This document shows, one piece after another, positions 1-50,356 of a stretch of DNA of 64,000 bases. The notes below the pieces were generated by a model. The model was not told the DNA's origin and ran no database searches. It saw only the letters and a program-made list of their open reading frames with translations. Made by a program: the position numbers and the translations under genes. The DNA is taken from contig CANQWR010000008.1 of NCBI GenBank assembly GCA_947627625.1, positions 1 through 64,000 on the forward strand. Reading direction: 5' to 3'. Positions within the stretch are counted from its first letter, which is position 1. Each line of letters opens with the position of its first letter. This DNA comes from an uncultured Ruminococcus sp. GTDB lineage: Bacteria > Bacillota > Clostridia > Oscillospirales > Ruminococcaceae.

Positions 1-86
1 GGGGGATACTTCCCCCCGACGGGGGTTTGGGGGCAGAGCCCCCAATGGGGGTTCAGGGGGCAACGCCCCCTGCCCCTCATCGTTCT
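1..86 (+). repeat. GC-rich intergenic element, copy 1 (left end cut by window)
   Basis: Stacked short hairpins of the form GGGGGCAGAGCCCCC and GGGGGCAACGCCCCC, ending in CCCCTCATCGTTCT. The 5' end lies outside the window. It sits just downstream of the nth stop codon, reading toward it. 'Plus' orientation is defined here as the strand that ends in CCCCTAATCGTTCTA. Confidence 0.85.
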
Positions 87-103
87 CACAGGAAGCCCCC
101 AGA

Positions 104-751
104 TTAAGCCTTATTTGTCAGGAAGTACCTGCAAAAACCGCTCAGACTGCATTCACTACACTTAGGTTTTCTCGCACGGCAAGTGTCTCTTCCAAACTGG
201 ACAGTCTGGTGACAAAAACGGTTTGAGATTTCGGGGGGGAGAATTTTCAAAAGGTCTTTTTCCACTTTTTCAGGCTCTTTGTTGTCGGTCAGACCTATTC
301 TGCCCGAAATTCTTATACAGTGGGTGTCCGTCACGACAGCGGGTTTGCCGTAGAGGTCTCCGAGAATCAGGTTTGCGGTTTTTCTGCCGACACCAGGCAG
401 AGACAGCAAATCTTCCATATTGTCGGGGACTTTGCCGTTGAATTTATTGATAAGCTGTCCCGCACAGTCCTTTATATTTTTCGCTTTCGTGTGGTGGAAA
501 CCGCACGGTTTCACGCACTCCTCAAGTTCCGCAATATCGGCATCTGCAAAGGACTGCAAATCTGGATATTTTGCGAATAAAACTTTTGTGACTTCATTCA
601 CACGGGCATCGGTACACTGTGCGGAGAGACGTACCGAGAAGAGAAATTCATAAGGCTTTTTGTATTTGAGTGAACACTCTATATCGGGGTACAGCTTTTC
701 GAGTTCCCCGACAGCGAGAACAGCGAGCTTGGCAGGTGTCATTTTTTCCAC
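104..751 (-). CDS. nth: Endonuclease III (DNA glycosylase/AP lyase)
   Basis: Base-excision repair enzyme that removes oxidised pyrimidines and nicks at the abasic site. At 215 aa it matches the family length. The helix-hairpin-helix LPGVGRKTAN (about residues 118-127) carries the catalytic Lys124, and TDTH holds catalytic Asp142. A C-terminal [4Fe-4S] set, C-x6-C-x2-C-x5-C (Cys191, 198, 201, 207), is intact. The start is GTG at 751, six bases after a strong AAGGAGGG. The upstream gene stops 2 nt before it, so the two are probably cotranscribed and translationally coupled. Confidence 0.96.
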   Translation of the reverse strand: MEKMTPAKLAVLAVGELEKLYPDIECSLKYKKPYEFLFSVRLSAQCTDARVNEVTKVLFAKYPDLQSFADADIAELEECVKPCGFHHTKAKNIKDCAGQLINKFNGKVPDNMEDLLSLPGVGRKTANLILGDLYGKPAVVTDTHCIRISGRIGLTDNKEPEKVEKDLLKILPPEISNRFCHQTVQFGRDTCRARKPKCSECSLSGFCRYFLTNKA

Positions 752-753
752 GT

Positions 754-1119
754 TCAGCCCTCCTTTTTTTCGCCCGTCAGAACACGTCTTTTTTCGAGTA
801 TTTCGTCATATACGACGTACATTTTCTGGACGGTGTTTTCAAGAAAATAGTAATGCTTTATGTAGAAACCCAGAAGCACGAGTATTATAGTGACCAGAAT
901 GAGTACAAAGATATTCTGACTGAAAATCAGCACACTCATAAATATGCACAGGACAACTGCAAACATGAACGTCACAAGAAAGTGTACAATTCTCTCATGT
1001 TGCATAAACTCAATCTTGCAAAGGTGTTCTCTGAGAATTTCGTTGAGTTCGTCGGGATTACTGCACTTTTCGAGGGATTCTGTTATTCTTTTCATATAGG
1101 CGGTAAGGTATTCTGTCAA
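754..1119 (-). CDS. Small two-helix membrane protein, unknown function
   Basis: About 121 aa. An N-terminal helical, charged stretch (residues ~8-40) is followed by two hydrophobic segments (about residues 43-62 and 67-85) and a charged C-terminus ending in a Lys/Glu cluster, so both ends are probably cytoplasmic. I do not recognise a family. The open frame extends upstream to 1317, but I chose the TTG at 1119 because AGAGAGGTG lies just before it and the predicted transcription start leaves almost no leader. It is the first gene of a pair with nth. The pairing does not by itself suggest a repair role. Confidence 0.7.
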   Translation of the reverse strand: MTEYLTAYMKRITESLEKCSNPDELNEILREHLCKIEFMQHERIVHFLVTFMFAVVLCIFMSVLIFSQNIFVLILVTIILVLLGFYIKHYYFLENTVQKMYVVYDEILEKRRVLTGEKKEG

Positions 1120-1140
1120 ATTTATCACCTCTCTGAAAAT

Positions 1141-1169
1141 ATTATATAATATTGTCACGAAAAAGTCAA
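1141..1169 (-). promoter_or_regulatory. Sigma-A promoter for membrane protein-nth
   Basis: On the minus strand TTGACT-17-TATAAT. Predicted initiation near 1134 leaves a leader of only about 15 nt before the TTG start. The 322-nt gap between the divergent genes (1120-1442) holds this promoter, the opposite promoter at 1311-1339, and nothing else recognisable. Confidence 0.75.
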
Positions 1170-1310
1170 TATATATGTGAGTTTTATATAATTGTGAAAA
1201 TAAGATGTAAAAAATTTCCGGATAGAGCGATAAACGGCTTGAATACGCAGAATACGGCTCTTTGCCCATTGAGACCTTTTCTGTTTTCATTAAATTTTCA
1301 CAAAATATTG

Positions 1311-1339
1311 TTGACATTCGGAAAAATATATGATATAAT
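1311..1339 (+). promoter_or_regulatory. Consensus sigma-A promoter of the first dockerin gene
   Basis: TTGACA-17-TATAAT, a perfect match to consensus in both hexamers and spacing. The leader of about 95 nt ends in the ribosome site AGAGAGGA (1425-1432). Confidence 0.85.
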
Positions 1340-1442
1340 ATGCCATGTAAGGAACAGTTTTATCATGACAATGTTATAATTATATAACACGCATACACAA
1401 GTTAAGATTAAAATAAATAATTTAAGAGAGGATTGATTTTAC

Positions 1443-3641
1443 ATGAGAAAGAGTAATCTCACAAAAAGACTAAGGGCAACTGCTGTCAGCATGGTAATGG
1501 CAGTATCGGCAGTTCCCGCCTATATGCTGTCTGTCCCGGCAGTAGCGGTTGTTGCACCGACCGTAGAGGTATCACAGCCGAAAACAGCCTCAATTGCCAC
1601 AATGACGGCAAAGGACGTTCAGAGACTTTACACGGCAGACTACGCAAAGACGGGTGACAAGTACATCAACATCACTTTCACCGCCAACTACACAGGCAAC
1701 ATGAGCTACGGCTTCGGAATCGGCACGGCAACAGCCCCCTATTGGTACGAGCTTGACGGCACAAAGGGAGGTTTCATAGACACGAGTGACGGCAAGACCG
1801 AGGCAAGCGGAACGGACGTTGATGTTACAGAGGGCGAGAGCGTCACAATTTCGATTGACGTTTCAAAACTTGACATCAAATTTGACCCGTCAACTTCTCA
1901 GTACCCCGGAGAGTTTGAGTTCAGATGCTACTATGCAGGAGAGGCAGGCGGTTCTATAACTATAGAGAGCATTTCAGGAAGTGCAACACCGCAGGCTACT
2001 ACAACTCCGAGCAAGCCCACAGACCCCGACAAGCCTGTTGACCCCGATGCTCCCGACAAGCCCACAGACCCCGATAGTCCCGATAAACCCGACAAGCCTG
2101 CTGACCCCTCACAGGACAGGACTGACATTGTTCCCAACAACAACAAGCACACAAACGAAAACAACTGGAGTTTCATAGACAACAAGGACGGCACGGCTAC
2201 TATAACTTCCACAGTTGCAAGGCAGATAGACGGTCTTGACATACTTCTCACAAAGGGCTATGACGAGGACTACTATGTTGCACACCCCGATGAAGATGTA
2301 GAGGGCAAGCCCATAAACAGCCACAAATTCCAGTTCAGTGACTTTGGTCTCACAGATACGGCAGGCGTTACCATTGAGTCTCTGACGTGTATTCTTGAAC
2401 CCGACAAGCCTATGGACCAGCTTGTATACGGCGGCGGAATAAGTGTTGAACCGCAGTCCCCCGCTGATACAGAGTATTCAAAGCAGATTGCCGGAATAGA
2501 GGGCAAGGAGGACGCAGGTTATTGGTACAACGACATGGGTCTTGACGGCGATGGTTCTGTAGCTTACTTTGAGGAGCAGGGCGTTGAGTTCGGCATAACT
2601 CCCGGAAACGGCGGAAGAGTTTACGACGCAGGCGACTATATCGAGGCTTATTGGGAAGTTCCCGCAGAGGTACAGCCCTATGTAGGCGGAAACACCACCG
2701 ACGGAATTTCTTTCCAGTACTGGTGGGGCAATGACACCGAAGGTGAAGAAGTAGAAGCCGTAACGATGACGAGTGCAATACTCACATATACAAAGTCCGT
2801 GACAGTTCCCTATGAGGGTTCGTCTGCAAAGGAAATCGGAAAGTCCCTCACTCACACGGGTACGGACGACCAGAAAAATCTTGAAGTATCTTACGCCGAC
2901 ATGGGCATTGATGAGACAATGGACGTATACGCTATACGTTTTGATATATCCGCAAAGTCGGACGTTAAAAAACTTGTCTACAATGTGGGAACAGGCGTTG
3001 AGGAGAGAATAAGCAAGGACTACTGGTATCAGGATGAAGTCAACTACTGTGTACTTGATGCGGGCGACACGGCACAGATTATGTGGATAGCTCCGCAAGC
3101 TGTTGCAGGTAACGGGGACGACATTCCGAACGGTGTCAACACGACTAAAGACGGAACGTTCATCATAGGCTACTACTACGGTGAGGCTGATGCGATAACT
3201 GTTGACAATATAGAAGTGTACTACGATGTGCCTGAGACAACTACTACCACCACGGAAACGACTACAACAACTACTACTACGACTACCACTACAACCACAA
3301 CAACATCTACAACAACTACTTCCACGACTACAGCTACTACAACTCCGACTACTACCGAGTCAACAACGACCACAACAGAGGCTCTCAAAGCTACGTGGGG
3401 AGACTTCAACCTTGACGGCAAGGCTACTATTGCGGACTCTGTAGCTATTCTTCAGTTCATTGCAAACCCTGACGAGTACACTCCGAAAGAGGAGGAGCAG
3501 GCTTCTCTCAACGGTGACGTTGTTGACAAGGGCAACGGTATAAATACCGACGATGCACTTGCTATACAGCTCTTTGATGCGGGACTTGTAAAAGAGGGTT
3601 CATACATGACTGCCGACGAGCTCAGTGCCATAGGAAAGTAA
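1443..3641 (+). CDS. Dockerin protein with three carbohydrate-binding-like modules, no catalytic domain
   Basis: Secreted 732-aa protein. In order: a signal peptide (residues 1 to ~35); module 1 (~50-185); an acidic Pro/Asp/Lys linker of PDKPTDPD type (~186-230); module 2 (~233-448); module 3 (~452-600); a Thr-rich linker of about 45 residues; and a C-terminal type-A dockerin (~648-732, GDFNLDGKATIADSVAILQ). The modules share a pattern: a Gly-rich strand (YGFGIG, YGGGIS, YNVGTG), a YWY motif, an AGD or EGE turn, and a final aromatic strand (FRCYY, QYWWG, GYYYG) followed by an I-x-I/V strand. This suggests beta-sandwich binding modules that target the cellulosome to polysaccharide. No glycosidase motif was found. 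R. flavefaciens CttA is a functional analogue, but I cannot claim homology by eye. Confidence 0.8.
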   Translation: MRKSNLTKRLRATAVSMVMAVSAVPAYMLSVPAVAVVAPTVEVSQPKTASIATMTAKDVQRLYTADYAKTGDKYINITFTANYTGNMSYGFGIGTATAPYWYELDGTKGGFIDTSDGKTEASGTDVDVTEGESVTISIDVSKLDIKFDPSTSQYPGEFEFRCYYAGEAGGSITIESISGSATPQATTTPSKPTDPDKPVDPDAPDKPTDPDSPDKPDKPADPSQDRTDIVPNNNKHTNENNWSFIDNKDGTATITSTVARQIDGLDILLTKGYDEDYYVAHPDEDVEGKPINSHKFQFSDFGLTDTAGVTIESLTCILEPDKPMDQLVYGGGISVEPQSPADTEYSKQIAGIEGKEDAGYWYNDMGLDGDGSVAYFEEQGVEFGITPGNGGRVYDAGDYIEAYWEVPAEVQPYVGGNTTDGISFQYWWGNDTEGEEVEAVTMTSAILTYTKSVTVPYEGSSAKEIGKSLTHTGTDDQKNLEVSYADMGIDETMDVYAIRFDISAKSDVKKLVYNVGTGVEERISKDYWYQDEVNYCVLDAGDTAQIMWIAPQAVAGNGDDIPNGVNTTKDGTFIIGYYYGEADAITVDNIEVYYDVPETTTTTTETTTTTTTTTTTTTTTTSTTTTSTTTATTTPTTTESTTTTTEALKATWGDFNLDGKATIADSVAILQFIANPDEYTPKEEEQASLNGDVVDKGNGINTDDALAIQLFDAGLVKEGSYMTADELSAIGK

Positions 3642-3670
3642 ATCATATTATCTATATTCAAAAATTCGGA

Positions 3671-3890: not shown

Positions 3891-6518
3891 ATGAATTTGA
3901 AAAAAATGACTTCTTTTCTGCTGTCTGCCGTCGTCGGACTGGGTTTTTCCGAAACGGCAAAATTCGGCTCTGTTGCGGAGTACAGCGTATCTGCACCCGA
4001 ACAGGCGGTTTTTACAAAGGCACAGACAAATCTTCTCGGCGATGTAAACGGCGATACCATGGTTGACGCAGGGGACGCTTCAAGTGTACTCGCAGAGTAT
4101 GCACTTCTCTCAACGGGCGGACAGTCCTCTTTCACTGATGAGCAGAAAAAGAGTGCGGACATAAACGCTGACAACATGATAGACGCTTCCGATGCCTCAT
4201 TTATTTTGAGTTACTACGCATACATATCGACGGGCGGAGAGGCTTCTTTTGAAGATATGCTTGTTGAGTGGGGAGTAGAAAGGGGTTCATCGGGTACTAC
4301 TACGACGGGTACTACAGGCACGGGTACGGGTACAGGCACGGAGACTGCCGTCACGACTACAACAGCGTCAGTAACCACTTCCGCAGTCACAGACCCGACA
4401 GAAGTTTCCGAGATAAAGCTGAGCAAGAGTGAAGTGAGCGTAAGTGTGGGTTACGGAGATATAGTCTATGTGACAATGCTCCCCGAAACCGCCACGGACA
4501 AGGGCGAGGTCTGGACGAGTTCGGACGAGAGTGTTGCGACTGTCAACGAGTTCGGCTTTATAACTGGAGTAAAAGCGGGTACTTGCACTGTAACTGTCGC
4601 AAGCAAGAGCAATCCCGATGTAAAAGCCGATATAAAAGTCACGGTAAAAGACCCGAATCAGGCGGGTGAGATAAAACTCTCAAAGACGGAAATGAATTTG
4701 GGAATAGGTGAGACGGACGTATCATATGCGACGGTTCTCCCCGAAGACGCAACGGACAAGTCTGTGACGTGGACGAGTTCGGACGAGAGCATTGCAAAAG
4801 TTGACCAAGGTTGGATTACGGGACTGAAAGACGGAACTTGCACCGTGACGGTTACAAGCAATGCAGACCCGTCCATAAAAGCGGAAGTAAAAGTGACGGT
4901 TACAGACCCCAACAAGGTGACGGGTATAGAGGTCTCAAAGACGGAGCTTGAAATAGGAGTGGGCTTTGCGGAGCAGATAACAGCACAGGTTTTCCCGACA
5001 GACACGCTTTACAAGTACATAGACTGGGAAACCTCCGACAAGAGTATAGCGGACGTTGACCAGATAGGTTGGATTTACGGAGTAAAGGCGGGAACTTGCA
5101 CGATAACGGCAATGAGTCAGGCAGACCACTCCATAAAAGCGGAAGTAAAAGTGACAGTCACGGACGGAAGCGTGACGGCTACGGAGACTTCTGCTACAGA
5201 GACTACAGAGACGACTACGTCCACCACGGCAACGGAGACAACAGCGACGGCGACGGCGACAGGTTCCGCCACAGAGACTGCAACGGGAACAGGAACGGCG
5301 ACGGTTTCAAGCGAGACGAGCGACACGACTGCTGCTACAACTACAACGACAAATAACGAGACTACCACCACCGACACGGAGACAACGACAACAGATACTG
5401 CTACAACGACTACAACTGCCACCACCACAGAGACAACTACAGCGACTTCCGCAACGGAAATTAAAGTCACGGAGATAAAACTGACAAAGACCGAAATGAG
5501 TATACCTGTCGGAAATATGGATATTTCCTATGTGACGATGCTCCCCGAGAACGCTCCCGACAAGGGCGAGATATGGACGAGTTCGGACGAGAGTATTGCG
5601 ACTGTGGACCAGTGGGGTTGGGTGTACGGCAAAAAAGCGGGTACTTGTATAGTCACGGTCACAAGCACGAGCAACCCCGATGTAAAGGCGGAGATAAAAG
5701 TGACAGTCACGGACAGTTCCGCAGATATAAAAGTCACGGAAATACAGCTGACAAAGACCGAAATGAGTATACCTGTAGGCGGTACGGATATTTCATATGT
5801 GACAATGCTTCCCGAAAACGCTCCCGACAAAGGCGAAATTTGGACGAGTTCGGACGAGAGCGTTGCAACGGTAGACCAGTACGGTTGGGTATACGGAGTA
5901 AAAGCAGGCACTTGCACGGTGACAGTCACAAGCACGAGCAACCCGAGTGTAAAAGCGGAGATAAAAGTCACTGTCGGGGACGGCGGTACGGAAGTAAAAG
6001 TCACAGAAATACAGCTGACAAAGACTGAATTTACGATACCGACGGGCGGTAAAAATATTTCCTATGTGACAATGTTACCCGAGAACGCTCCCGACAAGGG
6101 CGAAATTTGGACGAGTTCGGACGAGAGTGTCGCAACGGTAGACCAATATGGTTGGATATACGGAGTAAAAGCGGGTACTTGCACGGTCACGGTCACAAGC
6201 ACGAGCAACCCGAGTGTTAAAGCCGAGATAAAGGTGACGGTCACGGACAGTTCCGAATATGTGAAAGTCACGGATATACTCCTCTCAAAGACGGAGCTTA
6301 CAATACAGGCGGGTTACGGAAATATCTCCTATGTGACGATGCTCCCGTATGACGCTTCCGACAAGAGCGAGATATGGACGAGTTTGGACGAGAGTATAGC
6401 AACGGTGGACGAATACGGCTGGATATACGGAGTAAAAGCGGGCACTTGCACTGTTACGGTGACGAGCAGGAGCAATCCCGATGTAAAGGCAGAGATAAAA
6501 GTCACTATTATAGATTAA
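3891..6518 (+). CDS. N-terminal dockerin plus seven BIG2 Ig-like repeats
   Basis: 875 aa. A hydrophobic N-terminus (residues ~6-20) is probably a signal peptide. A type-B dockerin follows (~48-118), with two calcium loops GDVNGDTMVDAGD and ADINADNMIDASD, each followed by a YA-x-x-STGG helix end. Then come a Thr/Gly linker, three BIG2 repeats (~172-430), a long Thr/Ser/Glu-rich linker (~432-525) and four more BIG2 repeats to the C-terminus. Each repeat is about 85 aa with the hallmarks W-x-SSDES-x-A-x-V and G-x-K-AGTCTVTV. BIG2 domains occur in bacterial surface adhesins and spacers. No enzyme domain is present, so a structural or adhesive cellulosome component is likely. Repeats 4-6 are nearly identical. 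Confidence 0.88.
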   Translation: MNLKKMTSFLLSAVVGLGFSETAKFGSVAEYSVSAPEQAVFTKAQTNLLGDVNGDTMVDAGDASSVLAEYALLSTGGQSSFTDEQKKSADINADNMIDASDASFILSYYAYISTGGEASFEDMLVEWGVERGSSGTTTTGTTGTGTGTGTETAVTTTTASVTTSAVTDPTEVSEIKLSKSEVSVSVGYGDIVYVTMLPETATDKGEVWTSSDESVATVNEFGFITGVKAGTCTVTVASKSNPDVKADIKVTVKDPNQAGEIKLSKTEMNLGIGETDVSYATVLPEDATDKSVTWTSSDESIAKVDQGWITGLKDGTCTVTVTSNADPSIKAEVKVTVTDPNKVTGIEVSKTELEIGVGFAEQITAQVFPTDTLYKYIDWETSDKSIADVDQIGWIYGVKAGTCTITAMSQADHSIKAEVKVTVTDGSVTATETSATETTETTTSTTATETTATATATGSATETATGTGTATVSSETSDTTAATTTTTNNETTTTDTETTTTDTATTTTTATTTETTTATSATEIKVTEIKLTKTEMSIPVGNMDISYVTMLPENAPDKGEIWTSSDESIATVDQWGWVYGKKAGTCIVTVTSTSNPDVKAEIKVTVTDSSADIKVTEIQLTKTEMSIPVGGTDISYVTMLPENAPDKGEIWTSSDESVATVDQYGWVYGVKAGTCTVTVTSTSNPSVKAEIKVTVGDGGTEVKVTEIQLTKTEFTIPTGGKNISYVTMLPENAPDKGEIWTSSDESVATVDQYGWIYGVKAGTCTVTVTSTSNPSVKAEIKVTVTDSSEYVKVTDILLSKTELTIQAGYGNISYVTMLPYDASDKSEIWTSLDESIATVDEYGWIYGVKAGTCTVTVTSRSNPDVKAEIKVTIID

Positions 6519-6548
6519 AATATAGATTAAAATAAAATAATAAAATAA

Positions 6549-6587
6549 AAAAAGCTGTGCGGAGGAAAACCGTACAGCTTTTTTTAT
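6549..6587. terminator. Bidirectional intrinsic terminator
   Basis: AAAGCTGTGCGG pairs with CCGTACAGCTTT across a short A-rich loop. A T-run on one side and an A-run on the other let it serve both the BIG2-dockerin gene and the convergent regulator gene. Confidence 0.85.
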
Positions 6588-7691: not shown

Positions 7692-7805
7692 TGTGGGGAA
7701 ATCTGCCCCACTTCCCCTTGACCCAAAAAATGCCACGGAGGTCGGGTTTTGTTTCCTCTGTGGAAATAATTATGGGGGGCTTGGGGGCAACGCCCCCCCA
7801 AAAAG
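7692..7805. repeat. GC-rich intergenic element, degenerate copy 2
   Basis: Contains GTGGGGAAATCTGCCCCAC and GGGGGGCTTGGGGGCAACG followed by a C-run. It lacks the middle hairpins and the CCCCTAATCGTTCT end. It lies between the XRE promoter and the cdaR terminator. Confidence 0.6.
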
Positions 7806-10147: not shown

Positions 10148-10346
10148 TTGTAGGGGGACTTTGCCCCCACAACCCTTGGAACGATGAGGGGGCAGGGGGC
10201 TCTGCCCCCAAACCCCCGTCGGGGGGAAGAATCCCCCCGACCCCCCCCCATGATAATCTCCTGTTCCTATTTTTGGGGTCTGGGGGAGCAAAGTCTCCCA
10301 ACGTGGTCAAAAGGCAACTGCCCCTTGTCGTTCCAAAAAGTCCATA
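10148..10346 (-). repeat. GC-rich intergenic element, copy 3, in the cdaA leader
   Basis: Minus-oriented near-full copy, plus an extra partial unit (GGGGGACTTTGCCCCC) on the cdaA side. Its left end reads AGGAGATTATCATGG on the minus strand. The 355-nt gap upstream of cdaA holds only this element and the promoter. Confidence 0.85.
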
Positions 10347-11861: not shown

Positions 11862-12031
11862 TTACGGCATTGGGATTTTGGGGCGTTGCCCCTTTGGAAT
11901 TTGGGGGGCGTTGCCCCCCAAGCCCCCCATAAACGATAGGAGGCAGGGGGCGTTGCCCCCTGAACCCCCATTGGGGGCTCTGCCCCCAAACCCCCGTCGG
12001 GGGGAAGAATCCCCCCGAACCCCCCATGATA
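11862..12031 (-). repeat. GC-rich intergenic element, copy 4
   Basis: Complete minus-oriented copy with a second partial unit (GGGGCGTTGCCCC, GGGGGGCGTTGCCCCCC). Its left end on the minus strand reads AGTAGACTATCATGG. The 400-nt gap between the carrier-like gene and gpsA contains this element and the gpsA promoter. Confidence 0.88.
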
Positions 12032-15206: not shown

Positions 15207-15358
15207 TGGAACGATTAGGGGCAGGGGGCTTTGCCCCCTGAACCCCCATTGGGGGCTCTGCCCCCAAACCCCCGTCGGGGGGAAGAATCCCCCCGAACCC
15301 CCCATGATAATCTTCTATTGTTAATTTCGGAGACCGTAGGGTTGGGGGCAACGCCCTC
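15207..15358 (-). repeat. GC-rich intergenic element, copy 5
   Basis: Complete minus-oriented copy between the convergent spoIIR and SPFH genes. The minus-strand left end reads AGAAGATTATCATGG. A short extra unit (TTGGGGGCAACGCCCTC) lies outside it. Confidence 0.87.
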
Positions 15359-24796: not shown

Positions 24797-24858
24797 CTTA
24801 CGGCTTTGGATTTTTGGGGGTTCAGGGGGAAAAGCCCCTGCCCCTTATTGTTCTAATT
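24797..24858 (+). repeat. GC-rich intergenic element, short copy 6 inside the ABC operon
   Basis: Begins with the ACGGCTTTGGATTTTTGGGG left flank seen in other copies and ends CCCCTTATTGTTCTA. The end of the element supplies the TAG stop codon of the solute-binding protein gene (minus strand TAGAAC). It therefore lies between two genes of one operon. Confidence 0.75.
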
Positions 24859-26221: not shown

Positions 26222-26345
26222 TAAAACAGTAGAAAATTATCATGGGGGGTCTGGGGGGATGCTTCCCCCCAGCGGGGGTCTGGGGGCAGAGCCCCCAGTG
26301 GGGGTTCTGGGGGCAAAGCCCCCTGCCCCTAATCGTTCTTATTAA
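26222..26345 (+). repeat. GC-rich intergenic element, copy 7 (complete)
   Basis: Left end AGTAGAAAATTATCATGG, then four stacked hairpins, and right end CCCCTAATCGTTCTTA. It lies directly upstream of the solute-binding protein gene, in the opposite direction. Confidence 0.9.
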
Positions 26346-26354
26346 AATTAAATC

Positions 26355-26555
26355 TCTAAAAAAATATAATTTTAAGAAAATTATTTTTTGGGCAAAGCCC
26401 CCTGCCCCTAATCGTTCTAACTAAAATTTGCACAATCTCCAATAGTCCACAAGTCAAAGAAAATTTTCTAAAAAATATAATTTTAAGAAAATTATTTTTT
26501 GGGGTTTGGGGACAAAGCCCTTTGCCCCTAATCGTTCTAACTAAAATTTACACAA
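26355..26555 (+). repeat. Tandem duplication of the element's right end with an AT-rich palindrome
   Basis: Two copies, about 110 nt apart, of ATAATTTTAAGAAAATTAT (an 8-bp inverted repeat with a 3-nt loop) followed by a TTTTTTGGG run, a GGGCAAAGCCC-type hairpin and CCCCTAATCGTTCTAACTA. Together with copy 7 these fill most of the 520-nt gap 26194-26714; the rest is the PBP promoter. Confidence 0.8.
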
Positions 26556-26644
26556 AGTCCCCACTAAAAAGCTTATATAAATTATACAATATTTTCGTGA
26601 AATATTCAAGTGCCGTTTTATATGATTTTATGTCTGTCAAATTG

Positions 26645-28195: not shown

Positions 28196-28386
28196 CTGAA
28201 ATAATTTATAATGCCTTATACGGCATTGGATTTTGGGGGGCGGAAGTCCCCCTTTTCCTTAGTCGTTCCCTCTGTGAGAATAATTATGGGGGGTCTGGGG
28301 GGATACTTCCCTCCAGCGGGGGTTTGGGGGCAGAGCCCCCAATGGGGGTTCAGGGGGCAAAGCCCCCTGCCCCTAATCGTTCTAAA
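28196..28386 (+). repeat. GC-rich intergenic element, copy 8 with a leading partial unit
   Basis: A left partial unit (ACGGCATTGGATTTTGGGG to CCTTAGTCGTTCC) is followed by a complete plus-oriented copy starting AATAATTATGG and ending CCCCTAATCGTTCTA. The 388-nt gap between the PBP and rpmG genes holds this and the rpmG promoter. Confidence 0.88.
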
Positions 28387-34788: not shown

Positions 34789-37170
34789 TCAGCCCATAAG
34801 TGAGACATCATAAGGGAGAGTTGATATTGCCTTTGCATCGTAGTACTGAATAGCGAGAGCATCGTCCGTGCTGACACCCTTTTTCGTGTCCACATCGGCA
34901 TTTATAAAAGCCTGTCCCGTGAGTGCGTATTCGTCACCGTTTGCGAGATACTGGAGGACTGCGACACAATCGGCGATAGTTGTCTTGCCGTCAAGATTAG
35001 CGTCACCGTAGAGGGGCTGACCGGGTTCTACAGTCTGGTCGGGAGGAGCAAGTTCACCGTCTTCCGAACTTCCCGAACCCGTGGTTGTCTCACCGCCTGT
35101 TGTCTGTTCTGTTGACGGCTGTGTAGTATCGGGTTTTGTGGCAGGCTGTGTGAGGTCGGCAGTCGTGCCGTCGGGTTCCGTACCCCATATCAGCGTATCG
35201 CCGTCATACATTGTTATATAGGGGGTGTCAATCATAGCGTCCTCACCGCCCTGAGCGAGGTCTTTGAAAGAGTAGTCATTTGTAGCGTCCCAGACGATTT
35301 TGTTGCCGTCAGCGTCTTTGAGAGCGTCGTTTATGCTTATTCTGAACTGGCACTCCGAACGCCATTCGGACTGTCCTGTAGGCATTACGACACTGCCGTC
35401 ATTGAAAGAAATTTCAACATAGTAGACATTTCCGTCATACTGAACCGGCTGGCTTATTTCGAGTTTGCCCTCATCGCCCGAATGCTGATCATAGCCTATT
35501 TTGACTTCTACATCGTTTATAGATGCACCTTTTTCCACTATTTCAGAAATATCAAAATAATAGCGGTATTTCAGGTCTTTTATGGTCCTTGTAGGCCATG
35601 CGGAGTGGTTCATTGCATAGGCTTTTATTTCGGTGTAACTCTCATTGCTCTGATTTATAGAAGCACGCATGAAAAATTCTGCCCACTTCGGAGTTTCAAC
35701 AGGCGGGAAGTCTTTAAGAGGTTCTCCGCCGTAGTCGTCGATCATAGCACAGAGTGCAGCAGTATAGCCTGCGTTATAGTCTATGGCGACTTCCGTGTTC
35801 TGGTAAGAACCTACTTCATCCGTGAAAGTGCCGTCCTGATTCGGACCGCCCTCCAATGCACCATACAGGGTGTGAGCGTACTCTGTCTGCCACTTTGTAT
35901 TTTCGTCAGCCTCTTTGCCGAGGTCTGTCCACATATCCGTTGCGACACCCGAGGCGGTTCTGTGGTGTACGCTCTTTGCGTTCTTTTCGCCCATTCCTAT
36001 TACATAGGACATTCCCAGATCGTTGTCACCGAAAGCGTAGTCCATCTGTGACTTTGCCCAGTCGTTATATTTTTTACTCAAAGACGTATCGTCTGCAAAA
36101 ATTTTGTCAGCGGAGAGCATAGCAAGCCAAGCGGTGTTCTCAGCGTGACGGAGTGAACCCCACTGCATGAGCCAAGAGAGACCGTCGGGAGTTTTCTGCA
36201 ATTCGTCAACCCAGTAGTCAAGATGTTTCTTGATCTGAGTTTTCCACTCCTCCTTGCCCGTGTTCATGTAGTAGAGGAGTGCCGCACCCTGGTGTACATC
36301 GTCCCAGCAGAATCCCCATGTGTATTTTCTCTCATCCGACTGCTGCATTTTCTCAAACTGCGAAATGTAGTCGCTCTCACAAAGGTCAAGATATTTCTGT
36401 TCACCCGTTGCCATGTACATGAAGTTTGCGGCATAGAACAGGTCATCATAGAAACTTGAACACTTGTAATAATTTCCTCCGCCCTGAACGCCCTGGTCTT
36501 CATTACTTCTCGTTTTGTCGGAGAGTTCAAAGAGACTCTTTGCGTGTTCAAGATAGGTCTCCGCAAGGTCGGGTTTGTAGTCCTTGAAAACTATATATCC
36601 CGCCGCAAGTGCAGCAGCCATCTGTGCGGTCGTTGAGGTACAGGTTATTTCGTCATGCGGACGGGGATCTGAACCGCCTTTCAGCACGAATTTTTTCATG
36701 TAGACTTCCGCACTTCCCCACCAGACGTGGTCAAAAGCGTCGTCAGCGATAGCACCGACTACCTTGTCACCGAGGTCACAGCCCACAACGTAATCAAGTC
36801 CCCATTGCAGATTATTCATGTAGAGTTCATAGAGACCTGCATCTTTTACAGCGTCCTCATACTCCATAATGCCCCAAGCAAGGACTCCCGAAGTGTAAGC
36901 GTTTGTGAGAGCGAATTTTATGTGGTCTCCCGCATCGAACCAGCCACCGGGTACGAAATCGTTCTCCATCGAATCGCCCCTCCACGACACTTCATTCCAG
37001 TCGGGGAGTTCTCCCGCCTGCTGCACCTCATAGAAGAACATGGACTTCTGCAAAGCTTCCGCATAGTTTACGTCCACGGCAGCATCGGCTTTTTGTGTCG
37101 GGACAGCCGTGAACATTCCCGCTGTCAGTGCGAGTGCGGAGACAGCGGAAGTTATCTTTTTGAAATTCAT
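34789..37170 (-). CDS. GH9 endoglucanase with CBM3c-like module and dockerin
   Basis: 793 aa. Signal peptide (1 to ~30), GH9 barrel starting directly at the mature end (~33-480), a CBM3c-type module (~490-640, EFFMRASINQ... YRYYFDISE... SGDEGKLEISQPV), a Thr/Gln/Pro linker and a type-A dockerin (~720-793). GWFDAGDH holds Asp79 and Asp82; HHRTASG and a late E-x-AIDYNAGY give the other catalytic residues. GH9-CBM3c pairs are usually processive endoglucanases in which the CBM3c feeds the chain to the cleft. The ribosome site AAAAAGGAG precedes the ATG. Confidence 0.95.
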   Translation of the reverse strand: MNFKKITSAVSALALTAGMFTAVPTQKADAAVDVNYAEALQKSMFFYEVQQAGELPDWNEVSWRGDSMENDFVPGGWFDAGDHIKFALTNAYTSGVLAWGIMEYEDAVKDAGLYELYMNNLQWGLDYVVGCDLGDKVVGAIADDAFDHVWWGSAEVYMKKFVLKGGSDPRPHDEITCTSTTAQMAAALAAGYIVFKDYKPDLAETYLEHAKSLFELSDKTRSNEDQGVQGGGNYYKCSSFYDDLFYAANFMYMATGEQKYLDLCESDYISQFEKMQQSDERKYTWGFCWDDVHQGAALLYYMNTGKEEWKTQIKKHLDYWVDELQKTPDGLSWLMQWGSLRHAENTAWLAMLSADKIFADDTSLSKKYNDWAKSQMDYAFGDNDLGMSYVIGMGEKNAKSVHHRTASGVATDMWTDLGKEADENTKWQTEYAHTLYGALEGGPNQDGTFTDEVGSYQNTEVAIDYNAGYTAALCAMIDDYGGEPLKDFPPVETPKWAEFFMRASINQSNESYTEIKAYAMNHSAWPTRTIKDLKYRYYFDISEIVEKGASINDVEVKIGYDQHSGDEGKLEISQPVQYDGNVYYVEISFNDGSVVMPTGQSEWRSECQFRISINDALKDADGNKIVWDATNDYSFKDLAQGGEDAMIDTPYITMYDGDTLIWGTEPDGTTADLTQPATKPDTTQPSTEQTTGGETTTGSGSSEDGELAPPDQTVEPGQPLYGDANLDGKTTIADCVAVLQYLANGDEYALTGQAFINADVDTKKGVSTDDALAIQYYDAKAISTLPYDVSLMG

Positions 37171-37424: not shown

Positions 37425-37560
37425 TAGGGTGAACGATAAGGGGCAGGGGGCGTTGCCCCCTGAACCCCCATTGGGGGCTCTGCCCCCAAACCCCCGTCGG
37501 GGGGAAGAGAATCCCCCCGACCCCCCCATGATAGTCTCCTGTTTCAATTTTGGAAGTCCT
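37425..37560 (-). repeat. GC-rich intergenic element, copy 9 (complete)
   Basis: Minus-oriented. Minus-strand left end AGGAGACTATCATGG; right end GCCCCTTATCGTTC. It lies between the VanZ gene end and the GH9-CBM3 promoter. Confidence 0.9.
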
Positions 37561-38572: not shown

Positions 38573-38700
38573 AGAACGATTAGGGGAAGTTGTTCTGAAC
38601 CCTGTCGGGAGTTGCACCCCCGCTATGAGTATGAGGGGCAGGGGGCAACACCCCCTGCCCCTTATCGTTTTAATAAAAGTTCGGGGAAAAAAACCCCTGT
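38573..38700. repeat. GC-rich intergenic element, degenerate copy 10
   Basis: A mixed copy: an inverted right end (GAACGATTAGGGG) at one side, diverged centre with a CCCTGTCGGGAGTTGCACCCCC stretch broken into short hairpins, and a second right end (CCCCTTATCGTTTTA). Looks like two facing remnants. Confidence 0.65.
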
Positions 38701-39602: not shown

Positions 39603-41930
39603 CTAACAGAATTCGAACTCACCCAGTTCATCGTCTATAATATCGTCTATGTCCTCTGTGGGTTCTTCAATGGGTGTCATGGGAAGCTCAACAGAGGAGT
39701 TTTCATTCAGAACGACAGGAAGACTGTCTATCTGACCCGCATCGAGTTTCTGTATAGCGAGAGCATCGTCCGTGTTCACACCGTTTCCGACAGACTCAAC
39801 GTCTGCATTTACAAGAGCCTGTTCGTCAAGAGCGTACTCGTCGGAGTTTGCGAGGAACTGGAGAATTGCAACGCAGTCCGCAATGGTGACATTTCCGTCA
39901 AGGTTTGCGTCACCGAGCGTATCAGAACCGCCATCGCCTGTATCCTCCTCTGAACCTCCTACATGACTTTCCGTTATTTCTACAGGCTGGTCTGCTTTGT
40001 TGAGATTTGACCACCATATCTGTATTTCAGTAGAAGTCACATCGTCGTTTGCACTTTCAAGGGGTACTTTGACAGTAGCAAAACCGTCTTTGTCTATAGT
40101 GGTCTGCCATTCGACATTAACCCAGTCATCGGGGGTAGGACCGTTTGCAAAGCCCACTCCGCCGCCTACAGAAGCACCGGGAGTACCTTTTACGGTGAAA
40201 TACAAGAATTTATCCGACTTGTCGCCCTTTTCAACCTCAACAGGTTCTTTTACTATTTCAAACGTGAAATCTTCCGCAGTTGTTGTAGTTGTGGCAGTCT
40301 CCGAACCCGTGCCGTCGGGGGCTTTTGTGGTAGTCGCTGTAGTTGTCGGGGGCGTGGGCTTGTCTGAACCCGCTATAATATTGGTGTAGAGGTCTTTCGG
40401 GAGTTCGTCAAGGGTAATGCAGTAGTCGCTCTGATACATAGCAATAGTATCTTCCTCCGTGTTGAAACGAGGGTCTGTGAGGAAGTTTATATCGGGGCTT
40501 CCGCCGTCGTACCACGTCATGAAGTACAGCCAGCCCGCTTTTTCGGTCGTGATATTGTCAACCGTTGAGAAACTGTCGTTTTCAGCCATAGAGACCATTT
40601 TCTTGCTGTCGTACTTCTCCATAATGTTGTAGAAAGTACTTGAATAAGGAGCGTCATCGTGTATAACTTTAGGCTGCCAGCCGTTTTCCTCAAGATACTT
40701 TGTACAACTGTATTTGTCATAGCCGATTATATCGACATATTCGTCACCGGGATACCAGTCGGCGGAAGTTGCGAAGTCATAGCTGTTCCACTCCCATATT
40801 AGATTGTGCAGACCGAATTTTTCCGTGAGTGTCTTGTAGGTGTAGATCCAGAGGTCTTTGTAAGCCTTTGAACCCTCTCTGCCCCACCAGAACCAGGAGC
40901 CTGTCTCACCGCCGCCGCCTTCAGCCTCGTGGAGAGGTCTCCAGATAACGGGGATACCCTCGTCCTGAAGTTTTCCGAACTGTTCGGCAAGAGTAGTGAG
41001 AGCCTGCATATAGTACTGATTTTCCTTTGTACCCTCTTCTATAGCCTTAGACGGGGAGAAATCGGTCTTTTCGCTGTATGTAGTCTGTGCGAAATCGATT
41101 CTGCTTCCTATTTCGTAACTGCTCATATCAACGGGCACATTGAGGTGGAATGTGGACTCAGCGATTCCGTTTTTGTTCTTAACCCAGTCTATAACACGTT
41201 CCGTAGAACCGTCGTCACTTCCGAAAGCGGGACAGCAGAAGTTGCCGTAGTCAAAGCCCCTGAGTGCAGGATAGTGACCCGTAAGGTCATTGAGGTACTC
41301 GAACTCATACTCGAAATCGTGCGGACCGTAGTTGTAAATTTCCTGCTGACCCGAAATTATGTGACTTCCGTAGACACTTGCAAGGTAGGACATAAGAGCC
41401 TGAGCCTCTTTAGTGGCATCGGGGTCGCAGGGAGTAGTCTGCGAAGCGGTTATTTCCGCAAGTTCGGCAGTCTCGATAGTGAGATAGTCGAAGTTTGACC
41501 AGCCCCACGATTTTTCGATAACGATGGTGTTTTCACCCTCTTTGAGTTTGACAGTGGGAATGACGACCTTTTCAAAGCCGTCACTTTCGGGAACAGCAAG
41601 TGTTCCTACAGATGTGCCGTTTACGGAGAGGTTCTGCTGTTTTGCACCGCCTATTCCTCCCGTATATATGACGATATTGTACATTCCCTCTGCATCGGCT
41701 TTTACCGTGAGAGTTATTGTACCGCTGTCCGTCATTTTCAGACAGGAACCACCGCTTGCGGAGTCGTTTTTCTCAACAGTAACATCGCCTGTTATCTGAG
41801 CGTCCTCAAACTCATACCTGACACCCGTGTCCTCAGCAATTGCGGGAGTGTTGTTGAAAGGGGCAGTTCCGAGGAGCATAGCTGCTGCAAGAACCGCACA
41901 GTTGGCTTTTTGCCAGAATTTTGAATACAT
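39603..41930 (-). CDS. GH26 mannanase with CBM35, a second binding-like module and dockerin
   Basis: 775 aa. Signal peptide (1 to ~32), CBM35-like module (~37-155), GH26 barrel (~168-515), Thr linker, a ~110-aa module (~560-672) with GGGVGF and IQIWWSN motifs like those in the 732-aa dockerin protein, a type-A dockerin (~685-741) and a 34-residue acidic tail ending FEFC. Catalytic acid/base Glu335 lies in WRPLHE, nucleophile Glu450 in SMAEND. Endo-beta-mannanase is the likely activity. AAGGTGACAAGG precedes the ATG at 41930. Confidence 0.93.
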   Translation of the reverse strand: MYSKFWQKANCAVLAAAMLLGTAPFNNTPAIAEDTGVRYEFEDAQITGDVTVEKNDSASGGSCLKMTDSGTITLTVKADAEGMYNIVIYTGGIGGAKQQNLSVNGTSVGTLAVPESDGFEKVVIPTVKLKEGENTIVIEKSWGWSNFDYLTIETAELAEITASQTTPCDPDATKEAQALMSYLASVYGSHIISGQQEIYNYGPHDFEYEFEYLNDLTGHYPALRGFDYGNFCCPAFGSDDGSTERVIDWVKNKNGIAESTFHLNVPVDMSSYEIGSRIDFAQTTYSEKTDFSPSKAIEEGTKENQYYMQALTTLAEQFGKLQDEGIPVIWRPLHEAEGGGGETGSWFWWGREGSKAYKDLWIYTYKTLTEKFGLHNLIWEWNSYDFATSADWYPGDEYVDIIGYDKYSCTKYLEENGWQPKVIHDDAPYSSTFYNIMEKYDSKKMVSMAENDSFSTVDNITTEKAGWLYFMTWYDGGSPDINFLTDPRFNTEEDTIAMYQSDYCITLDELPKDLYTNIIAGSDKPTPPTTTATTTKAPDGTGSETATTTTTAEDFTFEIVKEPVEVEKGDKSDKFLYFTVKGTPGASVGGGVGFANGPTPDDWVNVEWQTTIDKDGFATVKVPLESANDDVTSTEIQIWWSNLNKADQPVEITESHVGGSEEDTGDGGSDTLGDANLDGNVTIADCVAILQFLANSDEYALDEQALVNADVESVGNGVNTDDALAIQKLDAGQIDSLPVVLNENSSVELPMTPIEEPTEDIDDIIDDELGEFEFC

Positions 41931-45636: not shown

Positions 45637-45697
45637 AATTTTATATATTAGATATTTAATTGGACGGACTTCCCCCAAGTTTCCAAAAAATCAGAAT

Positions 45698-45842
45698 AGA
45701 AGATTATCATGGGTCGGAAGTGTTTCCCCTGTGGGAATAATCATGGGGGGTTCGGGGGGATTCTTCCCCCCGACGGGGGTCTGGGGGCAAAGCCCCCTGC
45801 CCCTAATCGTTCTAATAAAAATTTGGGGACGGAGTCCCCAAT
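45698..45842 (+). repeat. GC-rich intergenic element, copy 11
   Basis: A false start (AGAAGATTATCATGG then GTCGG) is followed 25 nt later by AATAATCATGG and a copy lacking the AGAGCCCCCAATGGGGG segment. Right end CCCCTAATCGTTCTA, plus a GGGGACGGAGTCCCC hairpin. With the terminator it fills the gap 45558-45870. Confidence 0.85.
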
Positions 45843-46872: not shown

Positions 46873-46890
46873 AAATGTATATAAAAGACA

Positions 46891-46904
46891 ATTAGTTTAC
46901 TAAT
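46891..46904. promoter_or_regulatory. Probable ROK operator
   Basis: ATTAGT-TT-ACTAAT, a perfect palindrome centred about 19 nt after the predicted start of transcription. Its TTAGTTT/AACTAA flavour matches known XylR-type operators. The position suggests autorepression. Confidence 0.5.
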
Positions 46905-47165
46905 GTCTTGTTATAATTTATCATAGCTGAACTTCGTGCGGACGGAACAGACGTGACTATATTGCGTGAATTTCCGTGCAGTGTGCAGATAATGGGGTAT
47001 ACGCTGTGTAAATACAAAGCCCTTAATAACAGTGCAGTTGCCTCGTTATAACAGATAGTATTACAGTAATATATTTTATATTTTATCTGGATCTGATTTC
47101 GTAAGCCGAAGCTCATGTGTCTTTATTATCTTATTAAAATTTATCAAAGAATGGAGTTTTGACCA

Positions 47166-48386: not shown

Positions 48387-48449
48387 ATTTTAGGTGTTAT
48401 ATTATAGTAGAATATAAAATATTCGGGGTATAATTGGAACAAATAACAA

Positions 48450-48479
48450 AAGGGCGGTGAAAACCGCCCGTTGTTTTTA
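48450..48479. terminator. Bidirectional terminator between the ROK gene and galE
   Basis: GGGCGGT/ACCGCCC with a GAAA tetraloop; T-rich on both outgoing sides. Only 5 nt from the galE stop. Confidence 0.88.
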
Positions 48480-48484
48480 TTTGG

Positions 48485-49516
48485 TTATTTGTTGTAACCT
48501 TGAGGGTTTTTGCTCTGCCAGTTCCACGAATCACGGCACATATCTTCAAGAGATTTTTTTGCGGTCCAGCTGAGAACTTCATTTGCCCGTGAGGGTTCTG
48601 CAAAACATTCGGGCAAGTCACCCGCACGTCTCTCACCGTAGGAGTAATTTAATTTAATATTGTTCACCCTCTCAAACGTCTGCACTATTTCGGTGACACT
48701 GTAGGGGACACCCGTTCCCAGATTGAATATTTCAAAAATTTTCCCGTCAGAGTTTTTACCGAGCATATAGTCGAGAGCCTTGACGTGACCGTCTGCAAGG
48801 TCGGAGACGTGTATATAGTCACGTCTGCAAGTGCCGTCGGGAGTATCGTAATCTCTGCCGAAAATCGTGAGTTTTTCTCTTCTTCCGACAGCCGTCTGAC
48901 AGATACACGGCATAAGATTATTGGGTATTCCGAGAGGGTCTTCACCTATCATGCCCGATTCGTCCGCACCGACAGGGTTGAAGTATCTGAGGAGTATTGC
49001 GGAGATATTTTTTTCGGCTTTGACAGTGTCCTCAATAATCTGTTCGGACATAAATTTGGTCCAGCCGTAAGGATTTGTACAGGCAGAGCGGCTCATATCT
49101 TCCCTGTAGGGGGAGGGATTTTCGCCACCGTAGACAGTCGCACTTGACGAGAAAATTATATTTTTTACGGAATATTTTCTCATCATTTCGAGGAGTGAGA
49201 GAGTTGCATCGAGATTGCACCTGTAGTATTCAAGAGGTTTTTCAACGGATTCCCCCACAGCTTTCAGACCTGCAAAGTGTATGACCGCATCGATTTCGTT
49301 TTCACTGAAAATTTCAGCTATTGCGGAGGTATCGGTCATATCGGCTTCATAAGTTTTGAAAGTTTTCCCCGACAGTTCCATAACCCTGTTGAGAGCTTCG
49401 GGAGAGCTGTTTGAATAGTTGTCGGCAGTCACTATTTCATACCCCGAACGCAAGAGACTGAGGGCAGTGTGAGAGCCTATATAGCCTGCACCGCCTGCGA
49501 GAAATATTTTACCCAT
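48485..49516 (-). CDS. galE: UDP-glucose 4-epimerase
   Basis: Interconverts UDP-glucose and UDP-galactose for galactose use and glycan synthesis. 343 aa. NAD site GGAGYIGSH (8-16), SSSATVYG with catalytic Ser, and YGWTK with catalytic Tyr-Lys (~149-153). C-terminal FNLGTG and RRAGDLPECFA are typical. AAAAGGAG precedes the ATG. Confidence 0.96.
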   Translation of the reverse strand: MGKIFLAGGAGYIGSHTALSLLRSGYEIVTADNYSNSSPEALNRVMELSGKTFKTYEADMTDTSAIAEIFSENEIDAVIHFAGLKAVGESVEKPLEYYRCNLDATLSLLEMMRKYSVKNIIFSSSATVYGGENPSPYREDMSRSACTNPYGWTKFMSEQIIEDTVKAEKNISAILLRYFNPVGADESGMIGEDPLGIPNNLMPCICQTAVGRREKLTIFGRDYDTPDGTCRRDYIHVSDLADGHVKALDYMLGKNSDGKIFEIFNLGTGVPYSVTEIVQTFERVNNIKLNYSYGERRAGDLPECFAEPSRANEVLSWTAKKSLEDMCRDSWNWQSKNPQGYNK

Positions 49517-49578
49517 AATATTATTAACTCCTTTTATTTATATTTTTAATTTATATTTTTATATTTTATAATTTGCGG

Positions 49579-49983
49579 TCACTCTCCGATGGCATAGGAG
49601 ATCTTTTCCCTCTCGAGAGCCTTTGTCAGTTCGTCAATTGTATTCTGGACAGCACCATCGTCCACGATTTTCACAACGGTGTCGGTGCCGTTTGACTTTG
49701 CATAGCTGACAGCTTCCTGAAGAGAGACTTCCCCGTCCGCACAGAAGACAGTCCCGCCTGTTATTCTGATCTCGGTGTAAGCGGGAGGAGAGCTTGTGGC
49801 GGTCTGTATTTCGGTGAATGAAACGTCATCGCCGCCGATTTGGAGAGAATCCAGACCACGCATTTTCAGAAAGAAAGACATACCGAGCAGAATTAAAACT
49901 ATCATCATAAGACAGAAAGTGTCGAGAAATATTCTCTTATATTTTCTGCGTTTTTTTGCGGATTTTCTCTTTTTTGCGGACAC
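49579..49983 (-). CDS. Single-span membrane protein with an ExbD-like extracytoplasmic domain
   Basis: 134 aa. A very basic N-terminus (12 Lys/Arg in the first 17), one membrane helix (~19-40), a Ser/Thr linker and a compact domain (~73-134: GTVFCADGEVSLQEAVSYAK... DTVVKIVDDGA---TIDELTKAL). This order of strand-helix-strand-helix recalls ExbD/TolR, but no ExbB partner is next to it, so the similarity is tentative. GTG start at 49983, 7 nt after GAGGGGGA. Confidence 0.7.
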   Translation of the reverse strand: MSAKKRKSAKKRRKYKRIFLDTFCLMMIVLILLGMSFFLKMRGLDSLQIGGDDVSFTEIQTATSSPPAYTEIRITGGTVFCADGEVSLQEAVSYAKSNGTDTVVKIVDDGAVQNTIDELTKALEREKISYAIGE

Positions 49984-50017
49984 ATTGAACTCCCCCTCTC
50001 GTTTGCATTACAGTAAT

Positions 50018-50046
50018 ATAATATCACATTTTTCACAAAAAGTCAA
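50018..50046 (-). promoter_or_regulatory. Sigma-A promoter of the ExbD-like gene
   Basis: Minus-strand TTGACT-17-TATTAT with TGTGA before the -10. Confidence 0.78.
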
Positions 50047-50057
50047 GTATATTATTA

Positions 50058-50142
50058 GAACAATAGGGGGCAGGGGCTTCCGCCCTGACGGGGGACTCCG
50101 TCCTCGGACCTCTGCAAGGGGGTTAAAAACCCCCTTGACCCC
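50058..50142 (-). repeat. GC-rich intergenic element, divergent copy 12a
   Basis: Minus-oriented right end (GAACAATAGGGGGCAGGGGC) followed by a diverged centre with GACGGGGGACTCCGTC and AAGGGGGTTAAAAACCCCCTT hairpins. Confidence 0.65.
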
Positions 50143-50177
50143 CATAATAGAAACAACAGCCAATTCCGCTAATTTTT

Positions 50178-50356
50178 TCCTCTGTGGGAATAATCATGGG
50201 GGGTCTGGGGGGATTCTTCCCCCCAGTGGGGGTTTGGGGGCAAAGCCCCCAAGGGGGTTCAGGGGGCAACGCCCCCTGCCCCTAATCGTTAATGGGGGTT
50301 TGGGGGCGTAGCCCCCAACAAGCAACTCCTCCAATAGGAGTGGGGGAGAAGTCCCC
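50178..50356 (+). repeat. GC-rich intergenic element, copies 12b/12c
   Basis: A complete plus-oriented copy (AATAATCATGG to CCCCTAATCGTTAAT) runs into a partial second unit (GGGGGCGTAGCCCCC, GGGGAGAAGTCCCC). With 12a and two divergent promoters this fills the 447-nt gap 49984-50431. Confidence 0.88.

Follow-up and report, generated by a model that had tools for sequence, protein, structure and literature searches.

The stretch analysed here (the window) comprises bases 1–64,000 of contig CANQWR010000008.1 (C8) from an uncultured Ruminococcus species, whose draft genome amounts to 2.04 Mb in 38 contigs and is 87% complete. Among full-length relatives of its phosphofructokinase (≤86% identity), most loci of named genomes are labelled Ruminococcus, many of them R. 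flavefaciens. The window carries copies of a GC-rich, multi-hairpin repeat, which the original prediction, made from the letters alone, had described as a dispersed family at nine listed places. Each of the nine places holds a copy (9/9), and a covariance model built from 55 core copies (R1) recognises ten core places at E≤1e-6 when overlapping opposite-strand matches are counted once. The cores, the modules attached to them and the remnants are as follows (D numbers denote repeats).

1..86, + strand: core copy truncated at its 5′ side by the contig start (R1 97.4 bits, model positions 16-101)
10178..10254, − strand: core lacking one hairpin unit (R1 68.6 bits)
~10148-10346: longer mosaic around the 10178..10254 core, in which another right end, oppositely oriented, lies at 10321-10334
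11930..12030, − strand: full 101-nt core (R1 123.3 bits)
~11903-11919: extra G6/C6 hairpin adjoining the 11930..12030 core
15208..15308, − strand: full 101-nt core with left module 'a' reaching ~15358 (R1 127.2 bits)
26239..26339, + strand: full core followed by two right-end modules at 26385-26440 and 26499-26560 (R1 122.2 bits; D6, D7)
28283..28383, + strand: full core with left module 'b' and a ATGCCTTATACGGCAT hairpin upstream at ~28211 (R1 122.8 bits)
37430..37532, − strand: full core of 103 nt (R1 117.5 bits)
45740..45813, + strand: core lacking one 27-nt hairpin unit (R1 79.9 bits)
~45693-45746: tandem pair of left modules directly before the 45740..45813 core
50057..50148, − strand: degenerate array, head to head with the next copy (R1 54.8 bits)
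50193..50292, + strand: full core, partner of the 50057..50148 array (R1 115.6 bits)
7749..7799, + strand: remnant consisting of left module 'b' and one G5/C5 hairpin (D14, D5)
24815..24847, + strand: isolated third hairpin and the beginning of a right end (D12)
26385..26440, + strand: lone right-end module (D7)
26499..26560, + strand: lone right-end module (D7, D12)
38632..38693, + strand: lone third hairpin with right end (D7, D12)

The usual core is a GC-rich sequence of 101 nt in which three hairpins are combined with an outer stem. In order, it consists of ATCATGG, a G-run, hairpin 1 with a 6-nt loop, a G-run linker, hairpin 2 (loop mostly AGA), a further G-run linker, hairpin 3 (loop mostly AAA or AAC) and CCCC, after which come two variable bases and ATCGTTCT. 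The predicted right end, CCCC-NN-ATCGTTCT, is correct in most copies. The left end proposed at the same time, AGTAGAAGATTATCATGG, turned out to be one of several; the part common to the copies is ATCATGG or a close variant, upstream of which the same core carries one of at least four alternative left modules. Length variants track whole hairpin units, as had been claimed. Among 63 cores with both ends in a 464-kb own-species sample (the window plus 400 kb picked around known matches, in which copy density is biased upward and not representative), 43 are 101 nt long, nine 100 nt and two 99 nt; single cores measure 98, 102, 126 and 161 nt, and five (73–77 nt) have lost one hairpin unit of ~27 nt. 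Many copies are extended on the right by further modules, which include the third hairpin with its tail once more and also an AT hairpin, and 6 of 101 full own copies have an inverted right end upstream, forming head-to-head doublets. In the window, the pair 50057..50148 and 50193..50292 makes up a 234-bp unit with a right end on each side.

Copies are numerous in the genome as a whole. A core pattern allowing ≤2 mismatches gave 113 + 104 matches on the two strands and none when read backwards, and a second core pattern gave 114 + 113 = 227 matches with a control of 0, which excludes chance; the right-end pattern matched 192 + 167 times. The further copies that the original prediction expected outside the window are therefore present. 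Copies lie at contig ends at position 1 of the window and also in three related genomes (G046, G505 and G503), as expected if assemblies break at the repeat, in which case copy numbers would be underestimated.

When two copies were folded as DNA, each strand in turn, the z-scores were −4.0 to −5.0; the two copies differ in their lowest-energy fold. In the R1 alignment, which holds 55 of the 57 distinct cores among the 63 recognised (the 126-nt and 161-nt cores were left out), 99.2% of 1540 cells of a four-stem structure are paired. Double changes occur in 51 cells versus 11.9 in shuffled alignments, and the pairs with any double change number 5 versus 3.9 in shuffles; the own-species signal therefore consists of a few frequent swaps.

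Searches of related genomes extend the family across the genus. R1 (E≤1e-3) matches 63 of 125 genus genomes, the own genome included, and many of the matched loci in relatives carry a longer form of ~175 nt with five hairpins. From this form a second covariance model (R2) was aligned with one copy per genome from 18 species, the loci being 18 of 30 selected for showing the five hairpins (L159 was omitted as a near-duplicate of L149). Since the source loci were first found with R1, hairpins 1–3 are biased toward the R1 design, and hairpins 4–5 are not. At E≤1e-6, R2 matches 87 of 125 genus genomes, the own genome and, by construction, its 18 source genomes included; many of these reach the limit on scored candidates, and per-genome copy numbers from the RNA-model searches are lower bounds, as at most 32 (R1 search), 22 (R2 search) or, in a further search, 112 candidates per genome were scored. 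Together the two models place the design in 88 of 125 genus genomes, own included. R2 also detects the window copies (best E 2e-13), and a single 50-kb Escherichia coli control gave 0 matches with either model.

The five-hairpin form reads hairpin 1 CCAAAGGG..CCCTTTGG, CGGAGT, hairpin 2 CCAGAGGCAGMGCCTCTGG, TGGGGT, hairpin 3 GTGGGGCAAAGCCCCAC, a conserved stretch AAGCGCTCCGCAAGGGGTGAAT, hairpin 4 around CAGTCC-NNN-GGACTG, and hairpin 5. Its stems are paired in 98.7% of 877 cells, and 77 double-change cells are spread over 25 of 49 pairs; shuffles gave 10.0 pairs and 15.5 cells, and controls with slid alignments at most 7 pairs and 12 cells. A conserved fold is thus present both in the own copies and in 18 species, and its stems are maintained by compensatory changes. 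The covariation could instead be the mark of palindrome-templated mutation, that is, strand switching within hairpins in place of structural selection, which would hold the two arms identical in any hairpin DNA of high copy number and would be compatible with mobility. A two-pair stem swap seen in 12 of 55 own copies with one intermediate fits this account, as does locus L166, whose hairpin 5 (~1424-1460) is inverted with respect to the other 17 aligned species and hints at the flipping of single hairpins. However, the conserved unpaired stretch around AAGCGCTCCGCAAGGGGTGAAT and the loops conserved over 18 species need more than arm copying, and we regard templated mutation as a possible source of the covariation with somewhat less than an even chance of being right.

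Kinship between the own repeat and that of its relatives extends beyond the fold to sequence, since the genus-type first hairpin CGGGTTTCCAAAGGGG..CCCCTTTGG occurs at 19 places in the own 464-kb sample. Elsewhere this pattern matched 16 times in the 120 kb sampled from G505 and twice in the 163 kb from G048 (both sets of stretches were selected because they bear copies), never in the 55 kb from G063, and twice in 979 kb from named relatives. The own 464-kb sample gave no match to patterns for hairpin 4, hairpin 5 or the conserved stretch. The G5/C5-rich core as such is confined more narrowly: its exact sequence was found in 0 of 99 other genus genomes, the core patterns are absent from the 979 kb of named relatives, where R1, at E≤0.01, still matches 9 times, within 5 of 67 loci, and the right-end pattern is found in 0 of 395 other genomes of the family. 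Carriage by phages or plasmids was considered and dropped, as two patterns had no exact match in viral contigs and a 137-nt query had no match in plasmids and phages.

Rfam yielded 0 matches in the window at gathering scores, and nine loci searched in relatives gave nothing at E≤0.1 except an unrelated T-box; this T-box leader lies in L141 (1705-1963), ~100 bp from a copy of the hairpin element. Two loci from two other species, L102 (~13820-13905 and ~16090-16170) and L146 (~1430-1505), have a common left module GAAAGCAGACTNNGCC..GAGCGAGC..CGTAGTT before other hairpin arrays, which are probably another branch of the family.

With respect to genes, called here with a simple in-house caller, the copies are intergenic and occur in both orientations, in agreement with the original prediction. 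None of 121 profile-found copies (0/121) overlaps a called gene by >10 bp in the 464-kb sample, although 82% of it is coding, and the 101 full copies divide into 48 on the + and 53 on the − strand. Relative to co-directional neighbours, 30 copies in this sample have the same and 37 the opposite orientation. Of 111 copies classifiable by their flanking genes, 67 are co-directional, 19 convergent and 25 divergent (10 others lie at the edges of stretches), shares close to the available intergenic base pairs: gaps ≥120 bp, measured with the copies themselves in them, are 63% co-directional, 12% convergent and 25% divergent by base pairs. Counted per gap, copies occupy 20 of 38 divergent, 16 of 44 convergent and 58 of 280 co-directional gaps, the first two types being filled more often. 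Even orientation and a placement near the intergenic base-pair split speak against a role as terminators and are what tolerated insertions would give. For the structured RNA that transcribed copies would form according to the original prediction, placement and orientation reveal neither a terminator-like nor a sense-strand bias. More generally, the repeat might have multiplied for its usefulness to the host, as terminators, mRNA stabilisers or regulatory RNA. The strong covarying fold would suit such a function, and the genus hairpin with its A-run, CAGTCC-NNN-GGACTG and T-run has, on our reading of the sequence, the form of a two-way intrinsic terminator. Yet copies do not clearly favour gene ends, are evenly oriented to their neighbours and vary in presence between close species; a host function consequently appears very improbable to us, and the terminator role was dropped for want of a clear positional bias.

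Boundaries and differences in occupancy became visible in relatives. In G048, 11 of 11 copies (L210–L220) lie inside elements of 296–400 bp bounded by 13-bp inverted repeats AAATCATAATTTA/TAAATTATGATTT (≤1 mismatch), and the 2-bp flanks are equal in eight of them (six AT, one AC and one GT); inverted-repeat ends were found in the related G046 as well. An unlike terminal inverted repeat (TIR), CACTRTCNACAANTTAAG, has 83 and 113 matches in G505 and G063, with a control of 0, and 5 matches in G502. Apart from one alternative pairing, paired CACTRTCNACAANTTAAG ends span 169–283 bp, and elements of 254 and 264 bp contain the five hairpins. The hairpin body is found in two unrelated inverted-repeat backbones, and G015 and G504 are examples of species in which it has some other setting. 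Elements in these relatives end in inverted repeats; for the window copies, defined outer ends were not found.

When 60 kb of G505 were compared by synteny with 55 kb of G063, aligned blocks were 81–98% identical (mostly 89–96%) and many insertions were apparent. The compared part of G505 holds five full five-hairpin copies and that of G063 none; four of the five lie in segments without a counterpart, and the fifth has a partial counterpart in G063. In the one close species pair compared, therefore, 4 of 5 full copies are unshared, contrary to the fixed orthologous positions that would have refuted the original prediction. Two further G505 hairpin elements with CACTRTCNACAANTTAAG TIRs, which are weak R2 matches (26.5 and 27.6 bits), are flanked by target duplications of 9 bp (ATATGCAAA) and 10 bp (GAAAAATAAT), each of which is present as a single copy in G063, marking empty sites. 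The target-site duplications and empty sites that the original prediction proposed to look for are seen at these two elements, and none were found for the own copies.

Based on these results, we propose that the repeat is a modular, non-autonomous mobile DNA family, similar to miniature inverted-repeat transposable elements (MITEs) and to BOX elements, whose body is a chain of GC hairpins, and we hold this to be likely. Within the family the proposal draws on dispersal, intergenic siting, a covarying fold and genus-wide kinship. Support for non-autonomous mobility, which had been part of the original prediction, comes mainly from relatives, in which copies are bounded by TIRs and two close species differ as to where copies are present; we infer a similar origin for the spread of the own copies.

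Several observations weigh against this proposal. For the own copies, the one genome of the species revealed neither a TIR nor a target duplication or empty site; among the flanks of the 101 full copies there is one exact 13-mer inverted match of mixed composition, the G505-type TIR matches once in the 464 kb and the AT-rich G048-type TIR 9 times, a count that may be background, and an inverted right end stands upstream in only the 6 doublets. In relatives, the 2-bp flanks are unequal in 3 of 11 G048 copies and in the sole complete G046 copy; the AT/AT flanks could belong to the inverted repeat, so that only AC/AC and GT/GT argue for true duplication, and one G048 copy is common to G046, with a shared flank, the two species being 91–94.5% identical there. 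G015 and G504 are R2-positive and lack the CACTRTCNACAANTTAAG TIR. No clean duplications border the four five-hairpin sites specific to G505, and the corresponding G063 sites hold inverted-repeat remnants at one and 104 bp of other sequence at another, so that deletion or replacement is possible at those two. A sixth G505 copy, which is partial, corresponds to a remnant in G063 and represents an older shared insertion. As to enzymes, the Y1 transposase domain has 0 matches in the own genome (87% complete), and the transposase domain DDE_Tnp_1 has 0 in the own genome, G048 and G046 in a search limited to this DDE family; five DDE_Tnp_1 loci from G505, G063 and G502 lack these TIRs in their available flanks, some of which end at contig ends.

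Candidate ends for the own element were also tried. The AT-rich AAATTATAATTTA stands left in 16 of 101 copies, right in 44 and on both sides in 5, and its right-hand occurrences are mostly part of the AT hairpin module; it was dropped as a general explanation, as was the right end used as an inverted pair (the same 6 of 101 copies). Synteny around pfk with named relatives was too slight to show empty sites at base level.

The transposase remains to be considered. The original prediction named a REP-like (repetitive extragenic palindromic) family as one option and advised a search for a protein like the REP-associated tyrosine transposase (RAYT), and the corresponding model, a REP or REPIN (paired REP) system, would have a dedicated Y1 enzyme acting on folded single strands to spread the hairpins. 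The repeat is high-copy, extragenic and palindromic, its folded stems show compensatory changes of the kind reported for REPINs (PMC3116915), it forms head-to-head doublets in the 6 of 101 own copies, and a Y1 domain is present in 32 of 87 R2-positive genomes. Against this, no Y1 domain was detected in the own genome, 55 of 87 R2-positive genomes have none, including the 99%-complete, copy-rich G008, G048, G494 and G502, and there is no association across the genus (Y1 in 21 of 63 R1-positive versus 20 of 62 other genomes, p=1.0; 32 of 87 R2-positive versus 9 of 38 others, p=0.21). The 9–10-bp duplications and TIRs in G505 would also suit a DDE enzyme better than Y1. We therefore abandon the RAYT reading and consider such a system improbable.

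Other sources of a transposase were rejected as well. No autonomous element for the G048 TIR was present among 24 loci fetched, and an IS4/IS231-like parent has end-pattern likeness only, with no transposase gene bearing these ends among the DDE_Tnp_1 loci. When 19 long open reading frames (ORFs) from transposase loci were compared with the 464 kb of own sequence by tblastn, one query, presumably a dockerin, gave matches, which were scattered over the sequence as expected of a short repeated domain. Some other families of small inverted-repeat elements also prove polymorphic when G505 (L206, L261, L262) is compared with G063 (L259, L260, L263), with ends GGCAACACCGCACAGAG, GGCAACCTCTAAAAACC, CTCCTCGGGAAC and GAGCCTGTTTAGTATC; the GAGCCTGTTTAGTATC ends resemble those of the G502 DDE_Tnp_1 locus L294.

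Two further features of the window are protein repeats. A domain of ~70 aa recurs at 3396-3593, 31244-31468, 34807-35013 and 39714-39926 and is 47–49% identical to an ORF of L174, a Y1 locus of a relative; we take this domain to be dockerin-like, which would fit a cellulosome-bearing Ruminococcus. At 4392-6554 lie 300-bp repeats, four of them at 267-bp spacing, in the reading frame 3891-6518, which encodes a protein with long internal repeats.

In the mobile-family model that we favour, a DDE transposase supplied in trans would move the elements via their inverted repeats, and the hairpin body would ride along, having been picked up by different inverted-repeat backbones. Slippage and recombination between near-identical hairpin units and at shared junctions such as ATCATGGGG would add, drop and reshuffle modules. 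In the window species, a G5/C5-rich version may have expanded to ~227 cores that are now mosaics, which we propose as the reason why own outer ends are not plain, and genic insertions were presumably purged by selection, leaving the intergenic pattern. An alternative that we rate as unlikely, though not negligibly so, is that the multi-hairpin body is itself the unit that replicates or is selected: a folded DNA (or RNA), old and found throughout the genus, that has switched between unrelated inverted-repeat backbones and is carried by any available transposase. If true, the body would be a structured passenger that outlives its vehicles.

In plan and modularity, the closest known system is the streptococcal BOX element, which PMC3049150 describes as boxA-boxB(n)-boxC, end modules around variable internal modules that fold, with the same internal boxB between different end pairs in Streptococcus suis. 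The likeness is one of plan only, in that end modules combine with variable, folded internal units and the body occurs in different backbones; unlike BOX, the internal units here are GC hairpins with mostly 3-nt loops, and the ends in relatives are inverted repeats, some with target duplications. The elements of relatives also resemble MITEs and mobile insertion cassettes in being short, gene-free, TIR-bounded and in part flanked by duplications; a core of 101 nt and elements of 169–283 bp (G505/G063) or 296–400 bp (G048) are too short to encode a transposase. PMC3049150 describes MITEs as AT-rich, whereas here GC hairpins make up the body, which occurs in two unrelated TIR backbones.

The CACTRTCNACAANTTAAG ends can be compared with IS231 of the IS4 family, for which PMC2266710 gives the end pattern CAT-------AA--TAA--- and duplications of 10–12 bp. 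CACTRTCNACAANTTAAG fits positions 1-2, 11-12 and 15-17, and the 9–10-bp duplications come near, but its position 3 is usually C and not T; we treat the IS231-group likeness of the G505 ends and duplication length as a lead only. REP sequences, bacterial interspersed mosaic elements (BIMEs) and REPINs are likewise high-copy extragenic palindromes that form hairpin mosaics with compensatory changes (PMC3116915 and PMC3733652), and REP palindromes carry a tetranucleotide tag, GTAG or CGTC, at one end (PMC3733652). They differ from the present repeat, which has no RAYT match in the own genome, a larger multi-hairpin unit and, in relatives, TIRs accompanied by duplications.

Among the titles and abstract starts of the best-ranked open-licence matches, none describes a Ruminococcus repeat of this sort. 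An analogy from outside the bacteria is offered by the GC clusters of yeast mitochondria, short GC-rich hairpin clusters in AT-rich spacers, which belong to an organelle and, to our knowledge, have no sequence in common with the Ruminococcus repeat.

The results define a repeat family without an Rfam match in a common rumen and gut genus, where it probably contributes to assembly breaks. Species pairs with presence–absence sites allow direct study of its transposition. Furthermore, fold and hairpin order persist genus-wide while sequence and vehicle change, making structural selection separable from palindrome-copying mutation.

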